Source of the DNA: Acidimicrobiia bacterium
GTDB lineage: Bacteria; Actinomycetota; Acidimicrobiia; Spongiisociales; UBA11373
Assembly: GCA_030584185.1 (NCBI GenBank)
Contig: CP129495.1
Location: 1,013,608-1,077,607 of the forward strand
Direction of reading: 5' to 3'
DNA: 64,000 bases
Positions 4,396-56,958 of this stretch are shown piece after piece. Every line of letters begins with the position of its first letter. The first letter of the stretch is position 1. The notes beneath the pieces are model-generated. The model was not told the DNA's origin and did no database searches. It saw nothing but the letters and a program-made list of their open reading frames with translations. Both the position numbers and the translations under genes were made by a program.

Positions 4396-4980
4396 ATGTC
4401 CGACCGACCGCTGGGGAAGATCGTCCGCCTCCAGGTGCAGACCGCGGCCATCAAGACCAAGGGGATCGGCTACGACCCGGCACCGATCCTCGAGGTGGAG
4501 GAGCTGGCGGTGGGCCCGCTCGGGGCCACCGGGCTCCACCAGGCCTCGTGGGTGGTGGACGTCCACCACGGCGCCCATCCCCGGTCTCGTGGCGGAGGCA
4601 AGCGGGCACTCTCCGTCGGGTTCACCGGCCACTACGACCGGATCGCCGCCAGGTTCGGATCGGCCCCGCTCGGCTGCGCCGGGGAGAACCTGCTCGTGTC
4701 CCATCCGGACCGGGTAGTCCTCGACGACCTGGCCGGTTCGCTGGTGGTCCACACCGCCGAGGGTGAGGCGGTCCTGGGTGGCGCCCGTGTCGCCGCCCCC
4801 TGCGCCGAGTTCACCTCGTGGGTCAAGGGGCTCGACTCGGTGCTCCCCAAGACCGATCAGCCCGACGACGTCGCCTTCCTCGACGATGGGATGCGGGGCT
4901 TCATCGTCGACGTGGCCCGGCTGCAGGCGCCGATCGTGCTGCGGGTGGGCGACGAGGTGGTGGTCCGGCCCGACCGGTAG
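4396..4980 (+). CDS. MOSC-domain protein
   Basis: 194 residues. The MOSC core is visible: GCAGENLLV (the GENL signature), the hydrophobic VVLDDLAGSLVVHTAEG strands, and the conserved cysteine in APCAEF, which in the family carries sulfur from molybdenum-cofactor sulfurase chemistry. The role here is unknown. The genome also has mobA and xdhC genes in this window, so a Moco link is reasonable but inferred. CAGAAT lies 7 nt before the ATG (leaderless pattern). Confidence 0.75.
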   Translation: MSDRPLGKIVRLQVQTAAIKTKGIGYDPAPILEVEELAVGPLGATGLHQASWVVDVHHGAHPRSRGGGKRALSVGFTGHYDRIAARFGSAPLGCAGENLLVSHPDRVVLDDLAGSLVVHTAEGEAVLGGARVAAPCAEFTSWVKGLDSVLPKTDQPDDVAFLDDGMRGFIVDVARLQAPIVLRVGDEVVVRPDR

Positions 4981-4994
4981 GCTGGCCGGGATCG

Positions 4995-5756
4995 TCACCC
5001 GATCCCCAGGACCTCATTGAGCAGGTCGGGACGGTCGGTCACTATCCCGTCCACCCCAAGGGCGAGCAGTTGGCGCATCCGCTCGGGGTCGTTCACCGTC
5101 CACACGTGCACCTGCTTGCCTCCCCTGTGGGCGGCATCGATCAGCCGCTTCGAGGCGAGGCGGTCGGGCACCTGCAGGGCGTCGGCCCGCCCCCGGACCC
5201 GGGCCCCTGCGACCGCCGAGGTGACGGCGCGCGACACCTCCCTCGGTCCGGCTGAGGTCGCCACCCTCCCTTCCGTGATGCGGCGGAACCTCCGGATCCG
5301 GGTGTCGTGGAAGGATCCGATGAGAACGCGGTCCTCGACCCCCAGCCGCAGCACCTCGGTCGCCACCGCCTGCTCCACACCTCTCTGCTTGAGGTCCAGA
5401 TTGAGCATCACCTCGGGGAAGGACCGCACCACCTCCTCCAGCAGAGGGATCCCCACACCCTTGCCCCTGTAAGGGAACTCGCCTTCGGTCGCGAAGTGGT
5501 GGGCGGCGTCCAGCCGCCGCAACTCCTCCCAGCCCCGCTCCCACACCCTCCCGACACCGTCGGTGAGCCGTTCCAGCCGGTGGTCGTGGAAGATCACCAC
5601 CTTCCCGTCCCGGGTGAGGTGGACGTCGGTCTCCAGGTAGCGGTAGCCGAGGTCGACCGCCCCCTGGAACGCCGGCATGGTGTTCTCCGGCCACAGGACC
5701 CGCGACCCCCGATGGGCGAACCGGATCGGGTGCTCATGGGCGAGGTAGGGCTTCAC
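4995..5756 (-). CDS. Glycerophosphodiester phosphodiesterase
   Basis: 253 residues, GDPD family (UgpQ-like): cleaves glycerophosphodiesters to glycerol-3-phosphate and an alcohol. Active-site motifs are present: FAHRGSRVLWPENT (first catalytic His and substrate Glu), ETDVHLTRDG (metal Glu/Asp) and VIFHDHRLERLTDG (second catalytic His). There is no signal peptide, so it is cytoplasmic. GTG 5754-5756 is chosen as start because the domain begins shortly after it and AAGGGA precedes it; the longer frame runs into hutI. It lies 64 nt downstream of hutI on the same strand. Confidence 0.88.
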   Translation of the reverse strand: MKPYLAHEHPIRFAHRGSRVLWPENTMPAFQGAVDLGYRYLETDVHLTRDGKVVIFHDHRLERLTDGVGRVWERGWEELRRLDAAHHFATEGEFPYRGKGVGIPLLEEVVRSFPEVMLNLDLKQRGVEQAVATEVLRLGVEDRVLIGSFHDTRIRRFRRITEGRVATSAGPREVSRAVTSAVAGARVRGRADALQVPDRLASKRLIDAAHRGGKQVHVWTVNDPERMRQLLALGVDGIVTDRPDLLNEVLGIG

Positions 5757-5820
5757 CGTCGATCCCTTGGGAGGGGTGCCGAGATCGCCGGTCTGGGGAA
5801 GGGCCCGATCGACCGAGCGC

Positions 5821-8767: not shown

Positions 8768-8773
8768 TATGAT
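8768..8773 (+). promoter_or_regulatory. -10 box of the 412-residue lipoprotein gene
   Basis: TATGAT, 7 nt before ATG 8781. It decides between the two in-frame starts at 8769 and 8781. Confidence 0.55.
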
Positions 8774-8780
8774 CCGGGCG

Positions 8781-10019
8781 ATGCACCGCCGCCAGCGCTT
8801 CACCGTGGGTCTGCTGATGGTCGCCGCCGTCGCCTGCAGTGCCGATCCACTGCCGCTGGGGGGCGGCGGTGAGACCGACGAGATCGCCCCGGCCGAGGCG
8901 GCGGCGACCGTGCTCGAAGGGCGCTGGGGGGACCGCCTCGGCTTCTACGCCACGATGGCGTCCCTTGATGCCGGCTACTCGGGAGACCAGGTGATCGAGC
9001 ACGCCGGGACGGTTGCCGCCGATGGATCGATCCCAGGCGTCACCCCGGCGTTCGAGCCCCAGGGGGCACTCAGCCCCACCGGGCCCAACGGGGAGCCGCC
9101 ACCTGGCGCCTTCGGCTCCCCTGGGGGCATCCTCGGTTCCGGTCGCAGGATTCCCCTGCTGGCGGACGGGTCCACGCCGCGAGACCAGTACGTGTCCGAC
9201 CTCGGCTCGTGGCTCTCGGACGGCTTCGACGCCTGGTCCAGCGCCGACTCGGAACCGGATGACGCTCCATCCGAGGATGAGCTCAGGCTCACCGAGAACA
9301 TCCTGGTGCTCACGATCATGCTGGGGAGGGTGGGCTACTCCGCCGAGCAGATCCTGGAGGCGCTGATCCTCGACGGCTTTCGCGTCACCGGGCCCTGTGT
9401 CTGGGTGGAGGGCAGCGCCGGGCCCGAGCTGCCGCGCTTCCTCCCTTCGCGAGCCTCGGACGAGGACACCGGGACGCTCGACCCGTTTGCCGAGGTGTGC
9501 CGCCAGGCGATCTTCGTGGACGACGGAACCACCACGAGCACCACGAGCACGACGACCACCACCTCCGGAGCACTGCCGGGAGGCGTCGACGGCCTCTATC
9601 TCGGCACCGTGCAGTTCAATTGGGCGAACCAGGACCTGTCGCTGATCGAGAGCAGGGTCGAGATCGTCGTGAGCGGGACCGCCATGCAGGTCTCCCTCGA
9701 GTACACGATGCGGTACCCACCGCGGTACGTGGAAGGCGAGGCGGTCTGCTGGCTGGTGATCCACGACACCTGGAGCGGCACGGGAACGATCACCGGCACG
9801 TCGTTCGAGGCGGTCATCCAGGCGGGGAGCCGCGAGATCCTGGAGCGCGAAGGGGCCGAGTGCGGCACCGGTCCGAACTGGAAGACCGACGTCGCCGACG
9901 ACGTCGCCGCCGAGATGGCAGCGGAGCCCGACTGGCCCTTCACGGGGACCCTCCAGGATGGGACGCTCACGGGAGGCACCTTCCAGGGCAACATGGAGGT
10001 GGTTGCCATCCGGGAGTGA
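8781..10019 (+). CDS. Putative lipoprotein with Thr-rich linker
   Basis: 412 residues. The signal peptide (MHRRQRFTVGLLMVAAVAC) ends in a lipobox-like AVAC, so the mature protein is probably membrane anchored. Residues 30-250 form a helical, acidic region. A low-complexity Ser/Thr linker (TTTSTTSTTTTTS) follows near residues 252-264. The C-terminal domain (270-412) is rich in beta-like segments (SLIESRVEIVVSGTAMQ, FTGTLQDGTLTGGTFQGN), with GTxxGxxF repeats as in small beta-barrel lipoprotein domains. I recognise no named family. First gene of the DNA inserted between hutU and hutH. Confidence 0.75.
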   Translation: MHRRQRFTVGLLMVAAVACSADPLPLGGGGETDEIAPAEAAATVLEGRWGDRLGFYATMASLDAGYSGDQVIEHAGTVAADGSIPGVTPAFEPQGALSPTGPNGEPPPGAFGSPGGILGSGRRIPLLADGSTPRDQYVSDLGSWLSDGFDAWSSADSEPDDAPSEDELRLTENILVLTIMLGRVGYSAEQILEALILDGFRVTGPCVWVEGSAGPELPRFLPSRASDEDTGTLDPFAEVCRQAIFVDDGTTTSTTSTTTTTSGALPGGVDGLYLGTVQFNWANQDLSLIESRVEIVVSGTAMQVSLEYTMRYPPRYVEGEAVCWLVIHDTWSGTGTITGTSFEAVIQAGSREILEREGAECGTGPNWKTDVADDVAAEMAAEPDWPFTGTLQDGTLTGGTFQGNMEVVAIRE

Positions 10020-10659: not shown

Positions 10660-11070
10660 GTGACCGAGACCCGATACGAGTGGCGCGGCGACTTCGCCAA
10701 TCACGAGGTGAACGCCATCCACGCCGAAGCATTCGAGCATCGCCTGATCGACGACGACTGGAGGTCGATCACCGAGAGGCACAGCCTCGGCTGGGTGACC
10801 GCCCGCGAGGGTGATGCGCTGGTCGGGTTCGCCAACGTCGTCTGGGACGGGACCGTGCACGCCTGGCTGCAGGACGTGATGGTCGCCTCCGCCGCCCGCC
10901 GCCGGGGAATCGGCCTCGCCATGATCGGCCTGGCGACCGAACGAGCGAAGGCGGGAGGATGCGAGTGGCTGCACGTCGACTTCGACAACGACCTCCGCCC
11001 CTTCTACTTCGACGCCGCCGGGTTCGTACCGACCAATGGCGGGCTCATCGACCTGACCAGAGTCGACTGA
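10660..11070 (+). CDS. GNAT-family N-acetyltransferase
   Basis: 136 residues, a compact GNAT fold. The acetyl-CoA pyrophosphate loop is VASAARRRGIGLAMI (RRxxGI/G motif), preceded by the strand VHAWLQDVMV and followed by CEWLHVDFDNDLRPFYFDAAGF, which is the usual motif B/C end. Substrate unknown. GTG 10660 is chosen because TATCGT lies 6 nt upstream; in-frame ATGs at 10621 and 10639 are less well placed. The stop codon abuts the IS3 remnant. A decayed copy lies 560 bp upstream. Confidence 0.82.
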   Translation: MTETRYEWRGDFANHEVNAIHAEAFEHRLIDDDWRSITERHSLGWVTAREGDALVGFANVVWDGTVHAWLQDVMVASAARRRGIGLAMIGLATERAKAGGCEWLHVDFDNDLRPFYFDAAGFVPTNGGLIDLTRVD

Positions 11071-12197
11071 ACGCGCCGGCCTCACGGCCGACGGCCCGAG
11101 GTGGCAGGCACAGTCGCTTACGAGATGGCCTCGTCGGTCTGACGTCGGCGGAGACGGCCGAGTTGGTCACAGCGCGGCGTCGGCTCCGTGAGCTTGAGAC
11201 GGAGGTGGCGATCCACCGGCGCGCTACGGAGCTGTTGAAGGGCGAGGCCTCCCCAAAAAGGCGATTCGCGGCGATCCGGGTGATGGCCGCAGAAGGACTC
11301 CCCGTGGAGAAGGCCTGTCGACTGTTGGGCGTGTCAGTGTCGGGGTACTACTCGTGGAGGGACCGGCCACCGTCGGTTCGGGCGATCCGCCACGCGTGGC
11401 TGACGGAGTTGATCGCCAAGGCCCACACCGATTCGCGGGGCACCTACGGGGCGGCTCGTGTCCACGCCGAGCTGACCCTCGGTCAGGGGATCACGGTCGG
11501 TCATCAGGCAGTGGAGATGCTGATGCGCCGTGCCGGCCTGCAGGGCCTCACCGGGCGGCCCAGACACCGCAAGGTTCCGAACCTGGCAACGTCGTCTGAT
11601 CTGGTCGACCGGTCCTTTGGCCGCGACGAACCAGATCGCCTTTGGGTGACCTACATTACCGAGCACCGCACGCGCGAAGGCAAGGTCTACTGCGCCGTCG
11701 TGTTGGACACCTTCAGCCGCCGCGTTGTCGGATGGTCGATCGACTCATCGGCCACTGCCACGCTGGTGACCAGTGCCCTCGGGATGGCGATCGACCAACG
11801 AGCCCCAGTCGCCGGCGCGACCGTGATACATAGCGACCAGGGCACGCAATTCGCATCGTGGGCGTTCACCCAGCGCGCGATCGATTCGGGACTGTTGCCG
11901 TCGATGGGATCGATAGGCGATTGCTACGGCAACGCGATGATTGAGTCGTTCTGGAGCCGAATGCAGGTCGAACTGCTCAACACGCGGCGGTGGAGAACGC
12001 GGCTGGAGCTGGCCCGCGCGATCTTCGATTACCTCGAAATCTGGCACAACCGCCAGCGCCGACACTCATCGCTTGGCATGATGACACCGATCGAGTTCGA
12101 ATTTCGACATCAACCCACACCGGCAGCATGAATCCAACAACCGGCCTCCGCCAAACCCAGGGTACCCCAAAGCCTTCGGGAAACCCGGACGGGTTCA
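11071..12197 (+). mobile_element. IS3-family insertion element, 5'-truncated
   Basis: It contains the tail of orfA fused in frame to orfB (to 12131). The right end appears to be the inverted repeat finishing ...CCGGACGGGTTCA at 12197, of the TGAACC...-type found in many IS3 elements. The left part, including most of orfA, is missing. A weak TGAACGCGCCGG match at 11068 could be what remains of the left repeat. Confidence 0.65.
11116..12131 (+). pseudogene. IS3-family transposase (OrfA tail + OrfB), first catalytic Asp replaced
   Basis: The frame starts with the last part of OrfA (RLRELETEVAIHRRATELLK) and runs into a full OrfB: the HTH_21 region (VEKACRLLGVSVSGYYSW) and the rve integrase core. 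The second catalytic residue is in HSDQGTQF and the Glu in GNAMIESFWSRM. The first Asp, normally in WVTDIT, is Tyr (LWVTYIT at about 11640-11660), a change explained by one GAC-to-TAC substitution. With no upstream OrfA and a broken DDE triad, the enzyme is almost certainly inactive. Confidence 0.75.
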
Positions 12198-12254: not shown

Positions 12255-12788
12255 TCATGGTTGAGGACAGATCCCGTTGATTCGATCCCACTCAGCCGGG
12301 TCAGGGGGATCGACAGCCAAGTATGGGTGCCATACACCGGGTTGCTCCAAGAATGCCTCTAGCGACGGAGCGGGAGGTGGGAAGTACCCTTCCATCACCA
12401 GGCAGCGAGCGGTCTCAACGAGCTGCCAGTAGAAGGCGGTGAGCGCATCCTCGTCCATGGGGGCGACGACGCCGAACCTGCGGTCCATTTCCGTAAGGCA
12501 CCCAGCTTCTGCGGCTTCGAATGCGGTGACCTGCGATTCCGGCGTGTTGTACATGAACATGCCGCCGGACTCACCTACCGGGGGGAACCCCTTGTCCGTT
12601 AGACAGTCAGCCATGAACTCGTTCCGCGACTGCACCTGGATCGCGGGCGGCTCCGTGGCTCCGGTGGGGTCATCCGGCGCGGCACTGCAGGCGGTCAGTA
12701 TCACGACCACCGCGACCGCGAAGACTGAGGCCATGGGTCGGAAGGTTGACACCAACTGCCCCATCGGGTTCTGGTCAGGTCCGCTCAT
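12255..12788 (-). CDS. Lipoprotein LP1 of the secreted-peptide/ABC-exporter locus
   Basis: 177 residues. Signal sequence MASVFAVAVVVILTAC with lipobox LTAC. The mature part has repeated Cys-centred motifs (DCLTDKGFPP, RCLVMEGYFPP), a further GCLTEMDRRFG, and ends PYLAVDPPDPAEWDRINGIC. The C-terminal pattern W-x-PY...WD-x-I...CPQ is shared with the truncated gene at 16263-16456, so the two are homologues. It lies just downstream of the small secreted-protein gene SP1, as LP2 does with SP2. Start uncertain: GTG 12830 and ATG 12764 are also in frame. Family not recognised. Confidence 0.75.
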   Translation of the reverse strand: MSGPDQNPMGQLVSTFRPMASVFAVAVVVILTACSAAPDDPTGATEPPAIQVQSRNEFMADCLTDKGFPPVGESGGMFMYNTPESQVTAFEAAEAGCLTEMDRRFGVVAPMDEDALTAFYWQLVETARCLVMEGYFPPPAPSLEAFLEQPGVWHPYLAVDPPDPAEWDRINGICPQP

Positions 12789-12860
12789 GCGGCCCGCCTG
12801 CCCACCGCGCCCAGGCTCGTCGAGACTCACGGAAGGTGGAGGCCGGGTTGTCTCGTGTCG

Positions 12861-13199
12861 TTAGAAGCATGACGCATACGAACCCGAGTAACTCCAATTG
12901 GCCTCGTACAACGAGACCAACGCCTTCAGCGTGTATGAATGAGTCCCGGTGAACCCGTTCCAGTAGACCTGCGTAATCCGATAACCCGAGTTGCTGTCGG
13001 TGACGTAGTAGCTGTCGACATAGTGGCGATGGTTCATGTCGGAGTAGATCCGCGTCTTCACTTCGTTCGCAAAGGGATCGTCGCAAGTCACTGTGCCGGA
13101 CTCATAAGTCTTCCAGTAGGCAACCGCCCAAGCGGCCGACGCTACACCTAAGAGCAGGGTCGACACGATGATCATTACCACGAACTGCCGACGGGCCAT
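12861..13199 (-). CDS. Small secreted protein SP1, bacteriocin-like candidate
   Basis: 112 residues. A clear signal peptide (MARRQFVVMIIVSTLLLGVA, cleavage after ASAAWA) leaves a mature protein of about 87 residues that is rich in Tyr/Trp/Ser, with two cysteines (VTCDD near the start, ASCF at the end) that could pair. ATG 13197-13199 follows GGAGG at good spacing. It lies between an ABC exporter operon and lipoprotein LP1 on the same strand. The size, aromatic composition and ABC/lipoprotein context recall lactococcin-972-type loci, but I see no sequence motif that proves homology. Base composition is visibly more AT-rich than its neighbours. Confidence 0.7.
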   Translation of the reverse strand: MARRQFVVMIIVSTLLLGVASAAWAVAYWKTYESGTVTCDDPFANEVKTRIYSDMNHRHYVDSYYVTDSNSGYRITQVYWNGFTGTHSYTLKALVSLYEANWSYSGSYASCF

Positions 13200-13436
13200 T
13201 GGAGCCTCCGTCGTCTTGGGTACTGAATTGCTTCAAACAATAGCTTCGCCAATCTCGATTGTGGGTGTCGTAGAGCGATCGCGGGCCTGGAGGCAGGGAC
13301 CGCTCACGAGGTCGCCCTCGTTAGACTTGAAGAGCCACCATCCAGAAGGGGCTGCATCCACATAAAGGCCGGTCGGGTGATGTGGTCGGCGCTGGTCGGT
13401 TGGGTGTTCGAGGTCCGTCGTGAAATCGTCCCCATG
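13200..13436. other. Gene-free interval upstream of SP1
   Basis: 237 nt, AT-richer than the surroundings. It must hold the SP1 promoter, but I could not fix a convincing -35/-10 pair. GAAGC occurs twice around an ATTGTTT segment (13225-13250). No ORF is supported. Confidence 0.3.
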
Positions 13437-14525
13437 TCACGGCACCCGGAGCACCTTCACCGGGTCACGGTGGGCCGCGACCACGGCGGGGGGTAGGGCG
13501 GCGGCGATGGTGGCGATCACCGCGAGTACGGCGACGGCGACCGCGAAGGCGGGATCAGGGAGCTGATGGGTGAGCCGCCAAACCACCGAGGTCCCGACGG
13601 CGATTCCCAGGGCGGCACCGAGGACGCCGGTGATGGCGGTTTGCATGGTGACCAGGGCGATAATCGCTCCCCGGCTGGCGCCGAGGGCGCGGCGGCGGCC
13701 GAAGTCGCGGCGGCGGGTCGTGACTGCCCCATACATGTTGAGTACCACCAATACCAACCCGGCACCGAGGATCATCAGGACGAGTCTCCGCCCGTACGTA
13801 CCGAGTTCGCCGGCGACGGCGGCGCGTATCTGAGCAAGGGACTCGGATGTCTGCACCCTGAGGGAGGACGGGTCCGAAGGTCCGACCACCGCCACCACTG
13901 CGTCGGCGAGTGCGGCGACCTGGTCGGGTCGCTGGGCGAGCACGTGGATGGTCCGCACCACCGGGCTGACTACAGCGGGGCCTGGGGCGGCGAGAATCGA
14001 CCGGTCGAGATGTTCGAGCGGATCTCCCGCATCGAACCAGCCCACCACCGCGTAAGAGGAGCCATCGGAGGACTCCACTCCGCCGGCTGGCACCCGGAGA
14101 CCGAGGAGTGTCTGCGCCTCCGGCCCGACGAGCGCGGTTCCCGGGGCGACGTCCCACTCGGAGTATGCGACCTGGGGCGGGATCGTCCCGTATATGGGCC
14201 TCAGCGCCACCGGCTCACCCCCTGGGATTCCGGCGGCCCTAACGTCGGATGCCGGTCCCAGCCCCACCACCCACTCGAGCCCCGAGAGGCTTTCGATGCG
14301 GCGTACCGAGTCGGGGTCCATCCCTGCCCGGCCTTCGGTGTCGGTCAAGGTGATCGATCGGGTGCCCGCATCGTCGATACGGGAGAGGATCGCGTTTTCG
14401 GCCTGGATGGTCTGCCCGGTGGTCGAAAGGATCACCCCGCACACCGCGGCCACGATCAGCGTCGTGACCGTCGAGGCGACTGGCTGAGCCCGGGCCACCC
14501 GTACCGCCTCAGCGAACAGTCTCAT
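13437..14525 (-). CDS. FtsX/MacB-type ABC transporter permease
   Basis: 362 residues. One N-terminal membrane segment (about 15-35), a large extracytoplasmic MacB_PCD-like domain (40-230), then three TM segments from about 245 to 350, with the FtsX-like RRRDFGRRRALGASRGAII loop between the first two. Permeases of this type do not import: they act mechanically or export peptides and macrolides with an adaptor. The ATG overlaps the stop of the ATPase gene (ATGA). Third gene of an adaptor-ATPase-permease operon. Confidence 0.88.
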   Translation of the reverse strand: MRLFAEAVRVARAQPVASTVTTLIVAAVCGVILSTTGQTIQAENAILSRIDDAGTRSITLTDTEGRAGMDPDSVRRIESLSGLEWVVGLGPASDVRAAGIPGGEPVALRPIYGTIPPQVAYSEWDVAPGTALVGPEAQTLLGLRVPAGGVESSDGSSYAVVGWFDAGDPLEHLDRSILAAPGPAVVSPVVRTIHVLAQRPDQVAALADAVVAVVGPSDPSSLRVQTSESLAQIRAAVAGELGTYGRRLVLMILGAGLVLVVLNMYGAVTTRRRDFGRRRALGASRGAIIALVTMQTAITGVLGAALGIAVGTSVVWRLTHQLPDPAFAVAVAVLAVIATIAAALPPAVVAAHRDPVKVLRVP

Positions 14526-15157
14526 AGCGCAAGCACCTCGTCGCAGGCGGCGACCACCTTGGGGTCGTGTGAAGCGATCACCACCGTCGCTCCGTCAGCA
14601 TGGGCGAGCCCGACCAGGGAGTTGATCACGACGCGGGCGGTATCCGTGTCGAGGTTGCCGGTGGGTTCGTCAGCGAGAACCACCCGCGGCTTGTTGAGCA
14701 GGGCCCGGCACAGGGCAACCCGCTGCGCCTGCCCACCGGAAACCTCGCCCGGTTTGTGGGCGGCTCGAAGACCCACATCGAAATGGACCATCAACTCACC
14801 GGCTCGCGCCACCGCGACCCGACGGCGCATCCCGGTGTAGAGGGAGCCTTCGATGATGTTGTCGAGCACGCTGCGGGTCGAATCCAACGCGGCGTCCTGA
14901 AAGACGAACCCTATCCGATCGGCCCGAACCCTCGACCGTACCCGATCCGAGCTAGCCCCCAAGTCCTCGCCGTCGAAGGCAATCCGACCCGACAACGGCG
15001 ACAGCAGTAGCCCCAGCAGGTAGAGCAGCGTCGACTTTCCGCTCCCCGACCGCCCGGTGATCCCCGTGACACGGCCAGCGGGGAACGCCCAGTCGAGTCC
15101 GTCGATGATCGGCTCTCCCCGCTTGTACCCGAACGACAGACCGGATATCTCGATCAT
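14522..15157 (-). CDS. MacB/LolD-type ABC transporter ATP-binding protein
   Basis: 211 residues, a single nucleotide-binding domain. Walker A GRSGSGKST, Q-loop FVFQDAALD, signature VSGGQAQR, Walker B VVLADEPTGNLD (the TGNLD D-loop typical of the LolD/MacB class) and switch ASHDPKV. It pairs with the downstream FtsX-like permease. Starts at GTG 15172 (overlapping the upstream stop) or ATG 15157 are possible; I prefer the ATG, where the conserved IEISGL begins. Confidence 0.88.
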   Translation of the reverse strand: MIEISGLSFGYKRGEPIIDGLDWAFPAGRVTGITGRSGSGKSTLLYLLGLLLSPLSGRIAFDGEDLGASSDRVRSRVRADRIGFVFQDAALDSTRSVLDNIIEGSLYTGMRRRVAVARAGELMVHFDVGLRAAHKPGEVSGGQAQRVALCRALLNKPRVVLADEPTGNLDTDTARVVINSLVGLAHADGATVVIASHDPKVVAACDEVLAL

Positions 15158-15164
15158 CGGTGGC

Positions 15165-16229
15165 CTACCCACCCGGCGGCGAGGTCACCCGGATCAGGAT
15201 CACGGTGCCGACCTCGATGCCCTCGACCACCGCGATCCCCTGGGCTGACTCGACGATATCGATGTCTATGCGCTCGCCCGCAGGTGTGGTGACGAACGGT
15301 TGATTGCCGGCATCGAGCTGGATCGCCGCCACCGGCACCACCGGGCCCACCGTCTCGGGAATCACCACGATCTCCACCAGGAAGTCGGTAGGCCGCTCCA
15401 ACTCCACCCACCGCCGACACCCGGCCCCACAGATCGGACCACCATCAATGGTGGTGAGGATCAGATCGAGACGGCCGATCGCGGGGTTCTCCACGGCGCG
15501 TTCCACCCGGCCCTCCCAGACGCCATCGGGATAGGTGACGAACACTGTCGACGACAGAGGCACCAGGGTCCGCTGCTCGACCGATAACGGCACCCGGAAC
15601 ACCGGATCCGACGGCACCTCCAACACCAACCGCTCACCGCCCGAGACCGATGCCCCCACCACCAGTTCCGAACCCAGCGCCACCCGCACCGGTAGCTGCG
15701 GCACGAAGATCACATCACCCCGGCGTACCACCCCGTCGACCGGCACCCCCAGCGACCCCTGCCACGCCCGCACCGCGGCACGGGTAGTCACCCCGAACAC
15801 TCCGTTGATGTCACCCGTGTAGAAGCCCAATTCGGTCAGCAGTTCTTGCACCTGGGCGACATCGGCTCCGGCGACGTTCAAGGCCAAATCACGGAACGCC
15901 GGCACCGGTCCCACTGCAACCACCACCGGCCGCAGGTTCACCGAGTAGAGCGTCTCTCCGACCGCAAGCTCGTCGCCCGACGACACGGCCACCGAAGTGA
16001 CCACCCCGGCAGCCGAGTTCCACGCCAGGGGACGCAACTCCCACTCAGCCACCGCGGCGAACTGCAGGGACCGACCCACCCGGCCCTCGGCCACCGTATA
16101 GGTCACCGGCTCAGAAACACCCTCCAACGGATCTTCCGGCGGCACCAACACCACCCGCCCCGCCCAGAACCCGGCAGCACTGACCACAGCGAGACCAAGG
16201 ATGACGATCACCGTCCGGCCGGTCCTCAT
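15165..16229 (-). CDS. Periplasmic-adaptor-like protein with peptidoglycan-binding domain
   Basis: 354 residues. N-terminal membrane anchor (TVIVILGLAVVSAAGFWAG), then a lipoyl/HlyD-like strand region (RSLQFAAVAEWELRPLAW, VTSVAVSSGDELAVGETLY), a PG_binding_1 domain at about 120-165 (VQELLTELGFYTGDINGVFG), and C-terminal beta domains as in membrane-fusion proteins. In actinobacteria this combination commonly precedes a MacB-like ATPase and permease. It would link the exporter to the cell wall. ATG 16227-16229 has GAGGAG 10 nt upstream. Confidence 0.82.
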   Translation of the reverse strand: MRTGRTVIVILGLAVVSAAGFWAGRVVLVPPEDPLEGVSEPVTYTVAEGRVGRSLQFAAVAEWELRPLAWNSAAGVVTSVAVSSGDELAVGETLYSVNLRPVVVAVGPVPAFRDLALNVAGADVAQVQELLTELGFYTGDINGVFGVTTRAAVRAWQGSLGVPVDGVVRRGDVIFVPQLPVRVALGSELVVGASVSGGERLVLEVPSDPVFRVPLSVEQRTLVPLSSTVFVTYPDGVWEGRVERAVENPAIGRLDLILTTIDGGPICGAGCRRWVELERPTDFLVEIVVIPETVGPVVPVAAIQLDAGNQPFVTTPAGERIDIDIVESAQGIAVVEGIEVGTVILIRVTSPPGG

Positions 16230-16262
16230 CGTGACTGACTCCTCGGCGCAACTGCGGGCAGG

Positions 16263-16456
16263 CTACCCGGCTGGCTGCGTCATCGGGATGATCGGATCAC
16301 CCGGGTCCCAGGTTGACCAACCGCCCGGTGGTGTCTGGGGGCACGCCATCTGGATGGAGTCCCAACCCCCGCCTCCCGCTATTCCCGCATACGGATTCCA
16401 TGGACCGGTCTGATAGCTCTCAATACAGAGATCCACCGAGGGCGGGTCGGATGGCC
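16263..16456 (-). pseudogene. 3' remnant of lipoprotein LP3, beheaded by an IS
   Basis: The last 64 codons of a gene upstream of the adaptor gene, cut at 16456/16457 by the left end of an IS3-family element. Its tail, PSVDLCIES...GPWNPYAG...GGWDSIQMACPQT, matches the tail of LP1 position by position (PSLEAFLEQ, VWHPYLAV, EWDRINGICPQP). So the exporter operon originally began with its own LP-family lipoprotein gene. Confidence 0.65.
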
Positions 16457-16529
16457 TGACCCCCTGAGATTGGTCCACTCGTGGCGAGAGACCGAGACCC
16501 ACAAGTGTGGGTGAAGGAGGATCATCACG

Positions 16530-16802
16530 ATGGCGAGACGACGACATACGCCGGATCAGATCGTCCGGAAGTTGCGGGAGGCGGATCGGCTTGTCGGGGA
16601 GGACGCCGATGTGGCTGCCGTCGCCAGGCACCTCGAGGTGTCGGAGGCGACGTATCACCGGTGGCGCAACCAGTACGGCGGCCTGAAGGCCGACGACTCC
16701 AAGCGCCTCAAGCACCTCGTGGTGAGAACCGGCGGTTGAAAAAGATCGTGGCCGACAAGGAGCTCGAGATCGACGCGCTGCGGGAGATCGCCCGGGGAAA
16801 CT
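16530..16802 (+). pseudogene. IS3 OrfA, frameshifted
   Basis: ATG 16530 follows AGGAGGAT. The product opens as a typical HTH_Tnp_1 OrfA (RRRHTPDQIVRKLREA, SEATYHRWRNQYGG). At about 16715-16725 the frame is lost: the expected leucine-zipper end (ENRRLKKIVADKELEIDAL) continues in another frame to TGA 16804-16806. A small indel near KRLKHLV explains this. Confidence 0.65.
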
Positions 16803-16803
16803 G

Positions 16804-17568
16804 GTGAGCCCGTCGCGGCGACGCCGGGCCGTGGACATGTTGGTGTCCCGGTTGGGGTTGTCGCAGCGGCGGGTGTGTCGGATCGTTGGTCAGCATCGTT
16901 CCACCCAGCGTCACGCCCGCAGCGAGCCGGATCCGGATCGTGGTCTGCGCCGGTGGCTGGGGGACTTCGCCAAGCGGCATCCCCGCTGGGGATACCGCCG
17001 GGCTCATGCCGTGGCGGTTCGAGAAGGGCACCTGGTCAATCGCAAGAAGGTCCAGCGCCTGTGGCGCGAAGAAGGACTACGGGTGCCGCAGAAGAGGCGC
17101 AAGCGGCAACGGCTGGGTGACTCCACCACCCCGGCGGATCGGCTGGCCGCCGAGCATCCCGATCATGGGCGCTGGACTACCAGTTCGACGTCACCGTCAC
17201 GGGACGGACCATCAAGATCCTCCACGTCCTCGACGAACACACCCGGGAGTCGCTCAGCGATCTGGTGGCGTATTCGCTCGACGCGGATGCCACCGTCGGT
17301 GTCGTGGACAAGATCGTCGGGCAACGTGGAACCCATCGCCGCTTCATCCGCTGCGACAACGGACCCGAGCTCACCGCCAACGCCCTGCGCGACTGGTGCC
17401 GGTTCACCGGAGCCGGCACCGCCTACATCGACCCCGGCGCACCGTGGCAGAACCCGTGAGTCGAGTCCTACGGATCCCGGATGCGCGACGAGCTGTTGTC
17501 CATCGAAGCGTTCGACACCCTATTAGAAGCCCAGGTCCTCATAGCCGACTGGAGAGAGGAGTACAACG
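16804..17568 (+). pseudogene. IS3 OrfB, multiply broken
   Basis: The N-terminal part is intact (SRRRRAVDMLVSRLGLSQRR, HPRWGYRRAH). Near 17165 a frameshift moves the integrase core (ALDYQFDVT, first Asp; IRCDNGPE, second Asp) into another frame. At 17458-17460 TGA replaces the Trp of the conserved PWQNPW motif, before VESYGSRMRDELL. The frame then ends at the junction 17568/17569. Three independent lesions show long inactivity. Confidence 0.72.
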
Positions 17569-17810
17569 GGCACTCCGCGTTTCGGCGGGGTGTGATGGTG
17601 GCGAGGAGGTTCCAGTTGGGTCTGTCGGCGAAGAGCAGGGCCCGGATCCGGTAGTTGGGGAGGCTGGTGATCCCGAAGGCGGCCCGCTCGAGGCCACGAT
17701 CGTCCGGGTGAGCAAAGCCCCGGTCTGCCTTCTCCCGAGCACCTCCGAGGCGTGCGCGGCGAGCCTGCTCCTCGGTCCAAGCCCTGGCGGGACCTGGGTG
17801 TTGCACCCCC
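17569..17810 (-). mobile_element. IS terminus with transposase C-terminal remnant, copy 1
   Basis: The minus strand encodes a tail like YRIRALLFADRPNW ending near 17582, followed by an end sequence reading GAAACGCGGAGTGCC. This resembles the 3' end of an ISL3-type element, but the family is tentative. Copy 1 truncates the IS3 orfB. Confidence 0.4.
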
Positions 17811-17814
17811 GCCC

Positions 17815-18060
17815 TCAACCCACCTGGTCGAATTCGCCTCGTTCGATCAAGTCGGCGATGGCCTCGATCGAAGGCCCCGGCGGGCGGTCCCGGTCCAGAC
17901 GGGGCACCACGGTGCGGATCAGGTCGCGTACCGCAGCGGTGGTCGGGGCCGGACGCAGCGGCTGGCGCCGGTCGATCCCCTCTGCCGCACACATCAGCTC
18001 CACCGCCACCACCCGCACCGCGTTGTCCAGCACCATCCCCAGCTTGCGGCCCGCCCCCCA
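17815..18060 (-). pseudogene. hutH 3' fragment (duplicate)
   Basis: Encodes the last 81 residues of HutH (WGAGRKLGMVLDNAVRV onward, ending FDQVG) with a few substitutions relative to the intact gene. At 18060 homology ends abruptly and unrelated sequence begins. It lacks the active site and any start. Confidence 0.85.
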
Positions 18061-18155
18061 TTGGTGATTCCACTCAGGAGCCTCCGCCACGCCCCAGGAC
18101 ACACCAGAGCCTCCAAGAGGCCCAGGGTGATTCAAGCTCCCAGTTTCAACCTGGC

Positions 18156-18238: not shown

Positions 18239-18625
18239 ATGTACCAACAGCGGAAGATGGCTCGCCAAGTGCGCGTCCTCGTGGTCGCCGTTTCTATTGT
18301 TGGGTCCATGCTGGCCGTATCGGCGACGGCATGGGGCCACAGCTGGAATTTCGAGAGTTGCCAGTTCGCGGGAACCAACTGGATGTCCGGCGGCAACGGC
18401 AACTCGAGCACGACCGAACTCAATCCCGACGAGTGCGACTACCTCTGGACCAGGCTTCAGTTTCGCACGGAAGGCTACTGGTTCTGGTCGAGTGCTGCCT
18501 ACAGCTACGAAAACCTTGGCCAAGTGGTTCGGACGGTGTATCTCGTCCAGACCATCGGCGACAGCCAACACCGGGCCCAAGACAACTCCAGCAAGAACTA
18601 CAGCTCGACGTACACCCACCCGTAG
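18239..18625 (+). CDS. Small secreted protein SP2, bacteriocin-like candidate
   Basis: 128 residues. Signal peptide (VRVLVVAVSIVGSMLAVSA, cleavage near TAWG), then about 95 mature residues with two cysteines (FESCQ, DECDY), many Trp/Tyr/Ser/Asn and a C terminus YSSTYTHP. ATG 18239 is set by GCGGAGG 8 nt upstream. Like SP1 it starts with a MAR-type basic n-region, is aromatic-rich and is followed at once by an LP-type lipoprotein (2 nt gap). No named family is recognised; clear AT bias against neighbours suggests transfer. Confidence 0.7.
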   Translation: MYQQRKMARQVRVLVVAVSIVGSMLAVSATAWGHSWNFESCQFAGTNWMSGGNGNSSTTELNPDECDYLWTRLQFRTEGYWFWSSAAYSYENLGQVVRTVYLVQTIGDSQHRAQDNSSKNYSSTYTHP

Positions 18626-18627
18626 CG

Positions 18628-19221
18628 ATGCAGCTAGGTGAAGCGGGAGTCCGCCGTATCGTCGCTTCAGCCGCAGTTGCGGTGCTTGGGCTCACCGGCT
18701 GCCAAGGAGGATTGGAAGTCGGTGACGCCATAGCGCGAGAGGCTGAGCTCGGGGGACTCCACGAGGCTGCCGTGGCGGGAGGATTCGAGTTTCAGGCGGA
18801 GATCCTCTCCGATGGGTTGGTGAGCTACGCCGAGTATGAGGCGGCTGTGTTCGCGACCATCAGCTGTCTGCGGGAGCAAGGTCTGAGAGTCCTGGGGCCA
18901 ACAGAGTCGTCGGATGGACTTCTGGCCTACTCGTATGGTGGGGCCGAGACCAAGAAAGAATCAGACGCCCAAGTTGTCATCGGTGATGAGTGCGAGAGTC
19001 GGTATCTGAATTATGTCAGCGGAGGTTACAAGATCCTCCATGCTCCGAGCGCTGAGGAGATGCAACAGAGGCGCCTCGAGTATGCAGAATGCCTCCATGA
19101 TCGCGGATACGAGATTCATGCTGGGGCCACCGGTCCGGAGATGGACGAGCTCTCATCAGCAGTAGATGACTTGACCTGCGCCATTCGGTACAGCGACACC
19201 ATGGTGATCTCTGGGTACTAG
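18628..19221 (+). CDS. Lipoprotein LP2 of the secreted-peptide cassette
   Basis: 197 residues. Signal sequence IVASAAVAVLGLTGC with a canonical LTGC lipobox. The mature region shows Cys-centred motifs like those in LP1: SCLREQGLRVLG, ECLHDRGYEI, plus GDECESRY and DLTCAIRY. The recurrent form C-L-x-x-x-G-[FLY] with two other cysteines suggests disulfide-linked repeats. It starts 2 nt after the SP2 stop and is certainly co-transcribed. Role unknown; an immunity or sensing partner for SP2 is an inference from the pairing. Confidence 0.75.
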   Translation: MQLGEAGVRRIVASAAVAVLGLTGCQGGLEVGDAIAREAELGGLHEAAVAGGFEFQAEILSDGLVSYAEYEAAVFATISCLREQGLRVLGPTESSDGLLAYSYGGAETKKESDAQVVIGDECESRYLNYVSGGYKILHAPSAEEMQQRRLEYAECLHDRGYEIHAGATGPEMDELSSAVDDLTCAIRYSDTMVISGY

Positions 19222-19317: not shown

Positions 19318-19560
19318 GGCACTCCGCGTTTCAGCGTGGTGTGATGGTGGCGAGGAGGTCCCAGTTGGGTCTGTCGGCGAAGAGCAGGGCCCGGATCCGG
19401 TAGTTGGGGAGGCTGGTGATCCCGAAGGCGGCCCGCTCGAGGCCCTGATCGTCCGGGTGAGCAAAGCCCCGGTCTGCCTTCGCCCGATCACCTCCGAGGC
19501 GTGCGCGGCGAGCCTGCTCCTCGGTCCAAGCCCTGGCGGGACCTGGGTGTTGCACCCTCG
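19318..19560 (-). mobile_element. IS terminus with transposase C-terminal remnant, copy 2
   Basis: Same content as in copy 1: the minus strand encodes YRIRALLFADRPNWDLLAT before a stop at 19331-19333, and GGCACTCCGCGTTTC marks the element end at 19318. It sits immediately downstream of hutH. ISL3-like by appearance, tentative. Confidence 0.4.
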
Positions 19561-19809
19561 CCCTCAACCCACCTGGTCGAACTCGCCTCGTTCGATCAGG
19601 TCGGCGATGGCCTCTACGGACGGCCCCGGCGGGCGGTCCCGGTCCAGGCGGGGCACCACGGTGCGGATCAGGTCGCGTACCGCAGCGGTGGTCGGGGCCG
19701 GACGCAACGGCTGGCGCCGGTCGATCCCCTCTGCCGCACACAGCAGCTCCACCGCCACCACCCGCATCGCATTGTCCAGCACCATCCCCAGCTTGCGGCC
19801 CGCCCCCCA
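19318..19809 (-). repeat. 492-bp direct repeat, copy 2 (IS end + hutH 3' end)
   Basis: Same orientation as 17569-18060. This copy includes the 3' end of the intact hutH, so it is the likely parent. The two copies bracket the SP2-LP2 cassette. Confidence 0.85.
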
Positions 19810-56835: not shown

Positions 56836-56927
56836 GGAGGCGTCCGAGTGCCTGGTGGGCTCCCCGGTCTTCAAAACCGGAGGCGGGTCGCGAAACGGTC
56901 CGCGGGGTTCGATTCCTCGCGCCTCCG
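56836..56927 (+). tRNA. selC: Selenocysteine tRNA (anticodon TCA)
   Basis: Acceptor stem GGAGGCG with CGCCTCC. Anticodon stem-loop CCGGT-CTTCAAA-ACCGG, giving anticodon TCA, which reads UGA. T arm CGGGG-TTCGATT-CCTCG. A long variable arm (GCGG...CCGC, 56884-56905 region) separates tRNA-Sec from a tRNA-Trp-like UGA reader. The 3' end continues GCCG, so CCA is not clearly encoded. The exact 5' end may be one base earlier if the acceptor stem has 8 bp. SelA/SelB/SelD genes are not in the window. Confidence 0.88.
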
Positions 56928-56958
56928 CCGCCAGGGAGGTGGCCGGTCGGAGCCTCTC

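Follow-up and report, generated by a model that had tools for sequence, protein, structure and literature searches.

What does a gene for a small secreted protein do when it lies between a MacB-type ATP-binding cassette (ABC) transporter and a lipoprotein gene? The question arises in a 64,000-nucleotide stretch (the window) of an Acidimicrobiia bacterium (contig CP129495.1, positions 1,013,608 to 1,077,607), whose 2.2 Mb genome is a single contig. An earlier note, made from the sequence alone, had described a minus-strand run of a truncated lipoprotein, a cell-wall-binding adaptor, an ATPase, a permease, a small secreted protein (SP) and a second lipoprotein (LP); all six genes are present in that order and on that strand (12255-16460), and Pfam confirmed the domains of the adaptor, the ATPase and the permease. 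We give a probability of roughly one half to the reading that this is a mobile antagonist-plus-immunity cassette, in which SP would be a secreted antagonist and LP together with the pump would provide immunity. The genes of the system are as follows.

about 12788-12255, minus strand: LP1, the complete lipoprotein, with lipobox LTAC and four further conserved cysteines (AlphaFold2 model)
12861..13199, minus strand: SP1, a 112-aa secreted protein, signal peptide plus a mature domain of about 87 aa predicted as a beta-sandwich, with a cysteine at both ends; GGAGG stands immediately 5' of its ATG
13437..14525, minus strand: MacB-type permease, FtsX domain (PF02687, 1.4e-11)
14522..15157, minus strand: ABC ATPase of LolD/MacB type, ABC_tran (PF00005, 8e-29)
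15165..16229, minus strand: membrane-fusion-type adaptor, PG_binding_1 (PF01471, 8.7e-14) and weak Biotin_lipoyl_2
16263..16460, minus strand: LP3, remnant of a second lipoprotein, reduced to the LP C-terminus and cut by an IS3-like transposase (from the sequence)

SP, LP and the exporter recur together far beyond this genome. Loci with a related adaptor number 70 here; LP was found in 65 of them, the ATPase in 68 and a profile-detectable SP in at least 35. The pattern beside the exporter was a protein of 95-130 aa with a signal peptide and, immediately after it, a lipoprotein. In four of the five adaptor loci that lack LP, the adaptor lies near the end of the contig or locus; L081 is the exception. 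Some loci without an SP-profile match have an SP by signature only, for example L047 and L064, the latter from Oerskovia enterophila DSM 43852 with SP at 4680-4994 and LP at 5155-5763, and several Cryobacterium loci have LP and no visible SP. A search of 138 genomes of the order found SP in 12, with 33 matches in total. For 30 of these, LP lay on the same strand no more than 400 bp downstream; of the three exceptions, one had a transposase gene between it and its LP, and two were weak matches near E 5e-4. The SP profile had been built from open reading frames (ORFs) adjacent to LP, but the genome search could have picked up SP anywhere. In held-out loci SP stood upstream of LP, adaptor and ATPase in G396 (two loci, E 6e-11 and 1e-6) and in G438 (1.5e-10). 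The gap between the two genes ranged from -64 to +160 bp, with many pairs overlapping, and SP and LP distances were correlated (r 0.53 overall and 0.82 within genomes; permutation p 0.0005 and 0.001). With LP beside 30 of the 33 SP matches, the two form an almost obligate pair. The earlier note would have given up its idea had SP and LP lacked mutual linkage; they are linked to each other and to the exporter far outside this genome, so the idea survives this test and is partly supported. In a sample of the phylum the SP profile matched one other genome among 395, and at this search sensitivity SP is a rare, patchy trait. One SP-LP pair has, just upstream of it, a gene (L041:12064-12681) whose secreted product contains a DCSG motif and looks NlpC/P60-like by eye.

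SP sequences are highly diverged, with a mean column identity of 22%. When SP1 was left out of the profile it still scored 26.4 bits, with shuffled sequences at or below 4.0; most members scored more than 14 bits in such leave-one-out tests, and a few signature-based candidates failed to score. Judged by these profile scores, the SPs form one family despite their divergence. SP1 alone found one relative, so single-sequence searches fail for this family. Ratios of nonsynonymous to synonymous substitution (dN/dS) of 0.11-0.28 for SP and 0.19-0.31 for LP, taken from close pairs with dS near saturation, indicate purifying selection, and SP is therefore a genuine protein-coding gene. Its sequence features predict a cleavable Sec-type signal peptide of its own, and SP may therefore be secreted without the ABC exporter. 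The AlphaFold2 model of mature SP1 (33 sequences; pLDDT 91.7, pTM 0.81) has seven strands and predicts a beta-sandwich with high confidence, and the two invariant cysteines of the family lie in its first and last strands, which suggests a disulfide. Foldseek found nothing at E <= 0.001 in the PDB or among viral models; the best solved neighbours are beta-sandwich domains that include carbohydrate-binding modules (CBMs; 5fu3, TM-score about 0.5, E 0.05, not significant). SP1 matched no Pfam or NCBIfam family, SP and LP had no convincing family in Pfam, NCBIfam, PHROGs or PADLOC and no relatives by sequence among solved structures, and SP matched no housekeeping family, a match that the earlier note had said would refute its idea. 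That note had also proposed a second SP-LP pair at 18239-19221. LP2 does belong to the LP family; SP2 lacks the terminal cysteine and, at -5.8 bits, falls outside the SP profile, so it was rejected as a second member and the pair is no ordinary second copy. Their sequences do not establish SP1 and SP2 as members of one family.

The C-terminal pattern said to be shared by the lipoproteins is real: the lipobox cysteine, four more cysteines and the G-Y, PPS and CPQ motifs are common to LP1 and its family, whose profile matches relatives at E values as low as 1e-45 to 1e-52, far from what chance would give. LP2 lacks the C-terminal part (model positions 1-161 of 182). The AlphaFold2 model of LP1 (19 sequences; pLDDT 83.8 overall and above 90 across most of the mature protein) is essentially all-alpha, and its fold found no match in the PDB (best E 2). 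LP1 has no Pfam or NCBIfam family; DUF7537 matched 2 of 19 LPs, at best 6.5e-4, which is not convincing. The LP profile also matched, at E about 1e-18 to 1e-21, a wider group of 'CMRxNG' lipoproteins that are encoded beside a related adaptor in Nonomuraea, Thermocatellispora and others, as well as in many genomes of the order, and that are without the C-terminal PPS / W-x-PY / CPQ part of LP. This widespread wider family of LP, whose members have two CMRxNG-type motifs, lies beside peptidoglycan-binding adaptors in L130-L141 and L101-L104.

With its FtsX/MacB permease, ATPase and adaptor, the pump has the composition of a MacAB/YknWXYZ-type exporter. The ATPase scored 166 bits against LolD and 144 bits against L_ocin_972_ABC in NCBIfam, both under cut-off, and its solved relatives include MacB and LolD. 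Within the order, about a dozen genomes have adaptor orthologues (E below 1e-70, identity up to 62%), and the genome studied here has three copies. A scan of GTDB contigs returned 62 adaptor loci, a few of which were already in the set and the weakest of which match in the peptidoglycan-binding domain alone. Most are in Micrococcales (Cryobacterium, Microbacterium, Agromyces, Cellulomonas, Oerskovia, Subtercola and Arthrobacter); others are in Candidatus Stackebrandtia, Propionibacteriaceae and metagenome-assembled genomes labelled Chloroflexi. A conserved ORF of about 160 aa lies directly 5' of the adaptor in some loci (L041:8901-9392, L042:1454-1945 and L036:2567-3043).

The system is also mobile. 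The distance from hutH to hutU is 10.9 kb in the window compared with 0.7-1.2 kb in five relatives of the family, so that the SP-LP-pump island is an insertion of about 10 kb in the hut operon. The insertion carries two IS3-like transposases, one on either side of the system, and a duplicated 3' fragment of hutH, seen as a 300-nt direct repeat (17569-17868 / 19318-19617, 96% identity), and G+C near the SP and LP genes is 63-64% compared with about 70%. A composite-transposon reading was rejected, as no terminal inverted repeats of the insertion sequence (IS) elements were found. The features that flank the system are as follows.

10959..12131, plus strand: IS3-family-like transposase, orfB-like, the other boundary of the system; its coding part starts within the listed ORF
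16530..17526 (about 16480-17540), plus strand: IS3-family-like transposase with broken frames, inside LP3 (ORFs and sequence)
17569..18070, minus strand: duplicated hutH 3'-end fragment flanking SP2-LP2 (direct repeat, matching translations)
18239..18625, plus strand: SP2, small secreted protein without the C-terminal cysteine
18628..19221, plus strand: LP2, LP-family lipoprotein with a divergent C-terminus (LP profile E 5.5e-25)

Elsewhere a mobilizable plasmid of Clavibacter sp. A6099 carries adaptor, ATPase, permease, an SP-like gene and LP, arranged as they are in the window. Its SP was identified from signature and position rather than from the profile. A lepB signal peptidase gene (L241:9779-10495) follows the SP-LP pair of this plasmid. 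Four genomes (G034, G070, G090 and G058) have 7-16 LP matches each, many of them in tandem SP-LP cassettes on contigs without a detected adaptor; these contigs are short enough that a pump may lie beyond their ends. C-terminal remnants of the permease, with the RDPVSILRVP ending, lie between SP-LP cassettes (L146:1748-2005 and L147:4561-4833), which suggests the decay of formerly complete loci. Between hutU and the IS lies a gene (window 8769-10019, plus strand) for a 416-aa protein that has TTST repeats and an N-terminus resembling that of a lipoprotein. It had no tblastn relatives in six hut regions examined in family genomes and may therefore belong to the insertion. The sole tRNA of the window, by ARAGORN, is a predicted selenocysteine tRNA (56836-56929, plus strand).

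Two known systems give these genes a possible sense. In nisin immunity a lipoprotein and an ABC transporter (NisI/NisFEG; LanI and LanFEG in general) form an established layout (PMC4828448), and the present locus resembles it in having both beside what we take to be a secreted antimicrobial, the role of SP being our own supposition. It differs in that the transporter is of MacB type with an adaptor and SP is not a lantibiotic-like peptide; moreover, homology of LP to NisI/SpaI was not found: neither the LP profile nor the all-alpha LP1 model, with its four conserved cysteines, has a convincing relative among the solved structures searched, NisI included if it is among them, or matches any solved lipoprotein immunity structure. 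In Bacillus a MacB-like pump with an adaptor (YknWXYZ) protects the cell from the secreted toxin SDP (PMC4887032), and like YknWXYZ and MacAB the pump studied here combines an adaptor, a separate ATPase and a MacB-like FtsX permease in a Gram-positive organism. Unlike them, its adaptor has PG_binding_1, no YknW was seen, and a lipoprotein and SP are added.

Taking the observed gene content, linkage, family membership, purifying selection and mobility as given, the proposed mechanism would run as follows. SP would be exported via Sec, fold outside the cell into a small and probably disulfide-closed beta-sandwich, and act on the cell envelope of nearby actinobacteria, most of them relatives. LP, held by its lipid on the outer face of the membrane, would bind its cognate SP, and LP and the peptidoglycan-anchored pump would together push SP, or a complex of SP and its target, off the membrane, by analogy with NisI/NisFEG and YknWXYZ. 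The producer would thus be protected from its own and related SPs. The adaptor's peptidoglycan-binding domain may anchor the pump to the wall, standing in for an outer-membrane channel, and the orphan SP-LP arrays could be additional weapon and immunity cassettes.

Several points weigh against this. Both the toxicity of SP and the protection by LP are what we infer from analogy. Correlated SP and LP distances would also be expected if the pair merely duplicates as a unit, and are not proof of contact. Selection on SP is purifying, with no sign of diversifying selection, and the predicted fold, which resembles CBMs at most weakly, would fit a binding rather than a killing role. No SP was found beside the CMRxNG lipoprotein-adaptor loci. 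Because these lipoproteins adjoin adaptors without SP, the link between LP and the pump is broader than that with SP, and to call LP the immunity protein of SP would be too simple. As the LP-adaptor link reaches lineages in which SP was not found, the role of LP may be general, and SP may have joined this partnership later.

Among the alternatives, a module for envelope structure or adhesion, in which SP resembles a carbohydrate-binding protein and covers or crosslinks wall or matrix, LP ties it to the membrane, and the pump clears away or reshapes SP-LP or pieces of wall, survives best. The CBM neighbours of the SP1 model, the peptidoglycan-binding domain of the adaptor, the NlpC/P60-like gene beside one locus and the purifying selection on SP would all suit it. 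Nevertheless the Foldseek matches fall short of significance, and cassettes that are patchy, mobile and multicopy, with many divergent pairs in one genome, are unusual for a structural role, so we regard it as doubtful. It is unlikely that SP is a signal or kin marker and LP its receptor, with the FtsX-type transporter relaying the state of LP mechanically as in BceAB-type flux sensors. MacB/FtsX-type transporters are capable of mechanotransmission, and one-to-one pairing with co-divergence would be expected of a signal and its sensor; however, in the gene calls inspected, most loci had no conserved two-component system or anti-sigma factor beside them, and orphan pairs lie on contigs without a detected adaptor.

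That the transporter itself exports SP, with LP as an assembly factor of a dedicated secretion operon, seems very unlikely. SP is tightly linked to the transporter in many loci and MacAB has been implicated in protein secretion (PMC4887032), but the Sec-type signal peptide of SP, the SP-LP pairs apart from a transporter and the LP-transporter loci without SP all speak against it.

Lactococcin 972 (Lcn972)-type bacteriocins are secreted beta-sandwiches (PMC11796350), and like SP, whose fold is predicted, they are small, Sec-secreted and encoded beside an ABC transporter of MacB/FtsX type. The earlier note had seen no Lcn972 signature in SP, and membership is rejected by sequence: PF09683 and the NCBIfam bacteriocin models had no match to SP1 or to 16 SPs at E up to 10, and hhalign gave 0.1% probability against actinobacterial Lcn972 (represented by three sequences). 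The Lcn972 structure is absent from the 50 best PDB fold matches of SP1. Genuine family members were taken from three actinobacteria, and two of their loci encode, after the peptide, a permease of about 700 aa and an ATPase, with neither adaptor nor LP. Here the permease has 362 aa instead of the large seven-transmembrane form of about 700 aa, the ATPase reached 144 bits against a TIGR03608 cut-off of 254.85, a peptidoglycan-binding adaptor and a cognate lipoprotein are added, and SP has two invariant cysteines, one near each mature end. A true Lcn972 system diverged beyond sequence recognition is thus the least credible of the readings. SP may nonetheless work like Lcn972, as a secreted beta-sandwich acting at the envelope.

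We return to the antagonist-plus-immunity cassette. The open-access literature, to which our search was confined (subscription literature lay outside it), yielded no paper describing an SP-LP-pump system. Quite possibly, and we put this tentatively, SP represents an undescribed class of secreted beta-sandwich antagonists of actinobacteria, borne on polymorphic SP-LP cassettes in which immunity comes from a lipoprotein that matches no solved fold and works with a peptidoglycan-anchored MacB-type pump. Little of the protein antagonism in actinobacteria has been charted, and the SP-LP cassette is a candidate example that is clearly bounded, mobile and multi-copy, with two signature proteins that lie outside every curated family searched and have confident structure predictions. 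It raises a question that can be tested, since cultured carriers such as Oerskovia enterophila DSM 43852 and Subtercola boreus exist: is a secreted beta-sandwich protein neutralised by a lipoprotein acting with a peptidoglycan-anchored MacB-type pump? The cassette is likewise a way into the unexplained adaptor-ABC-lipoprotein operons that are so common in actinobacteria.

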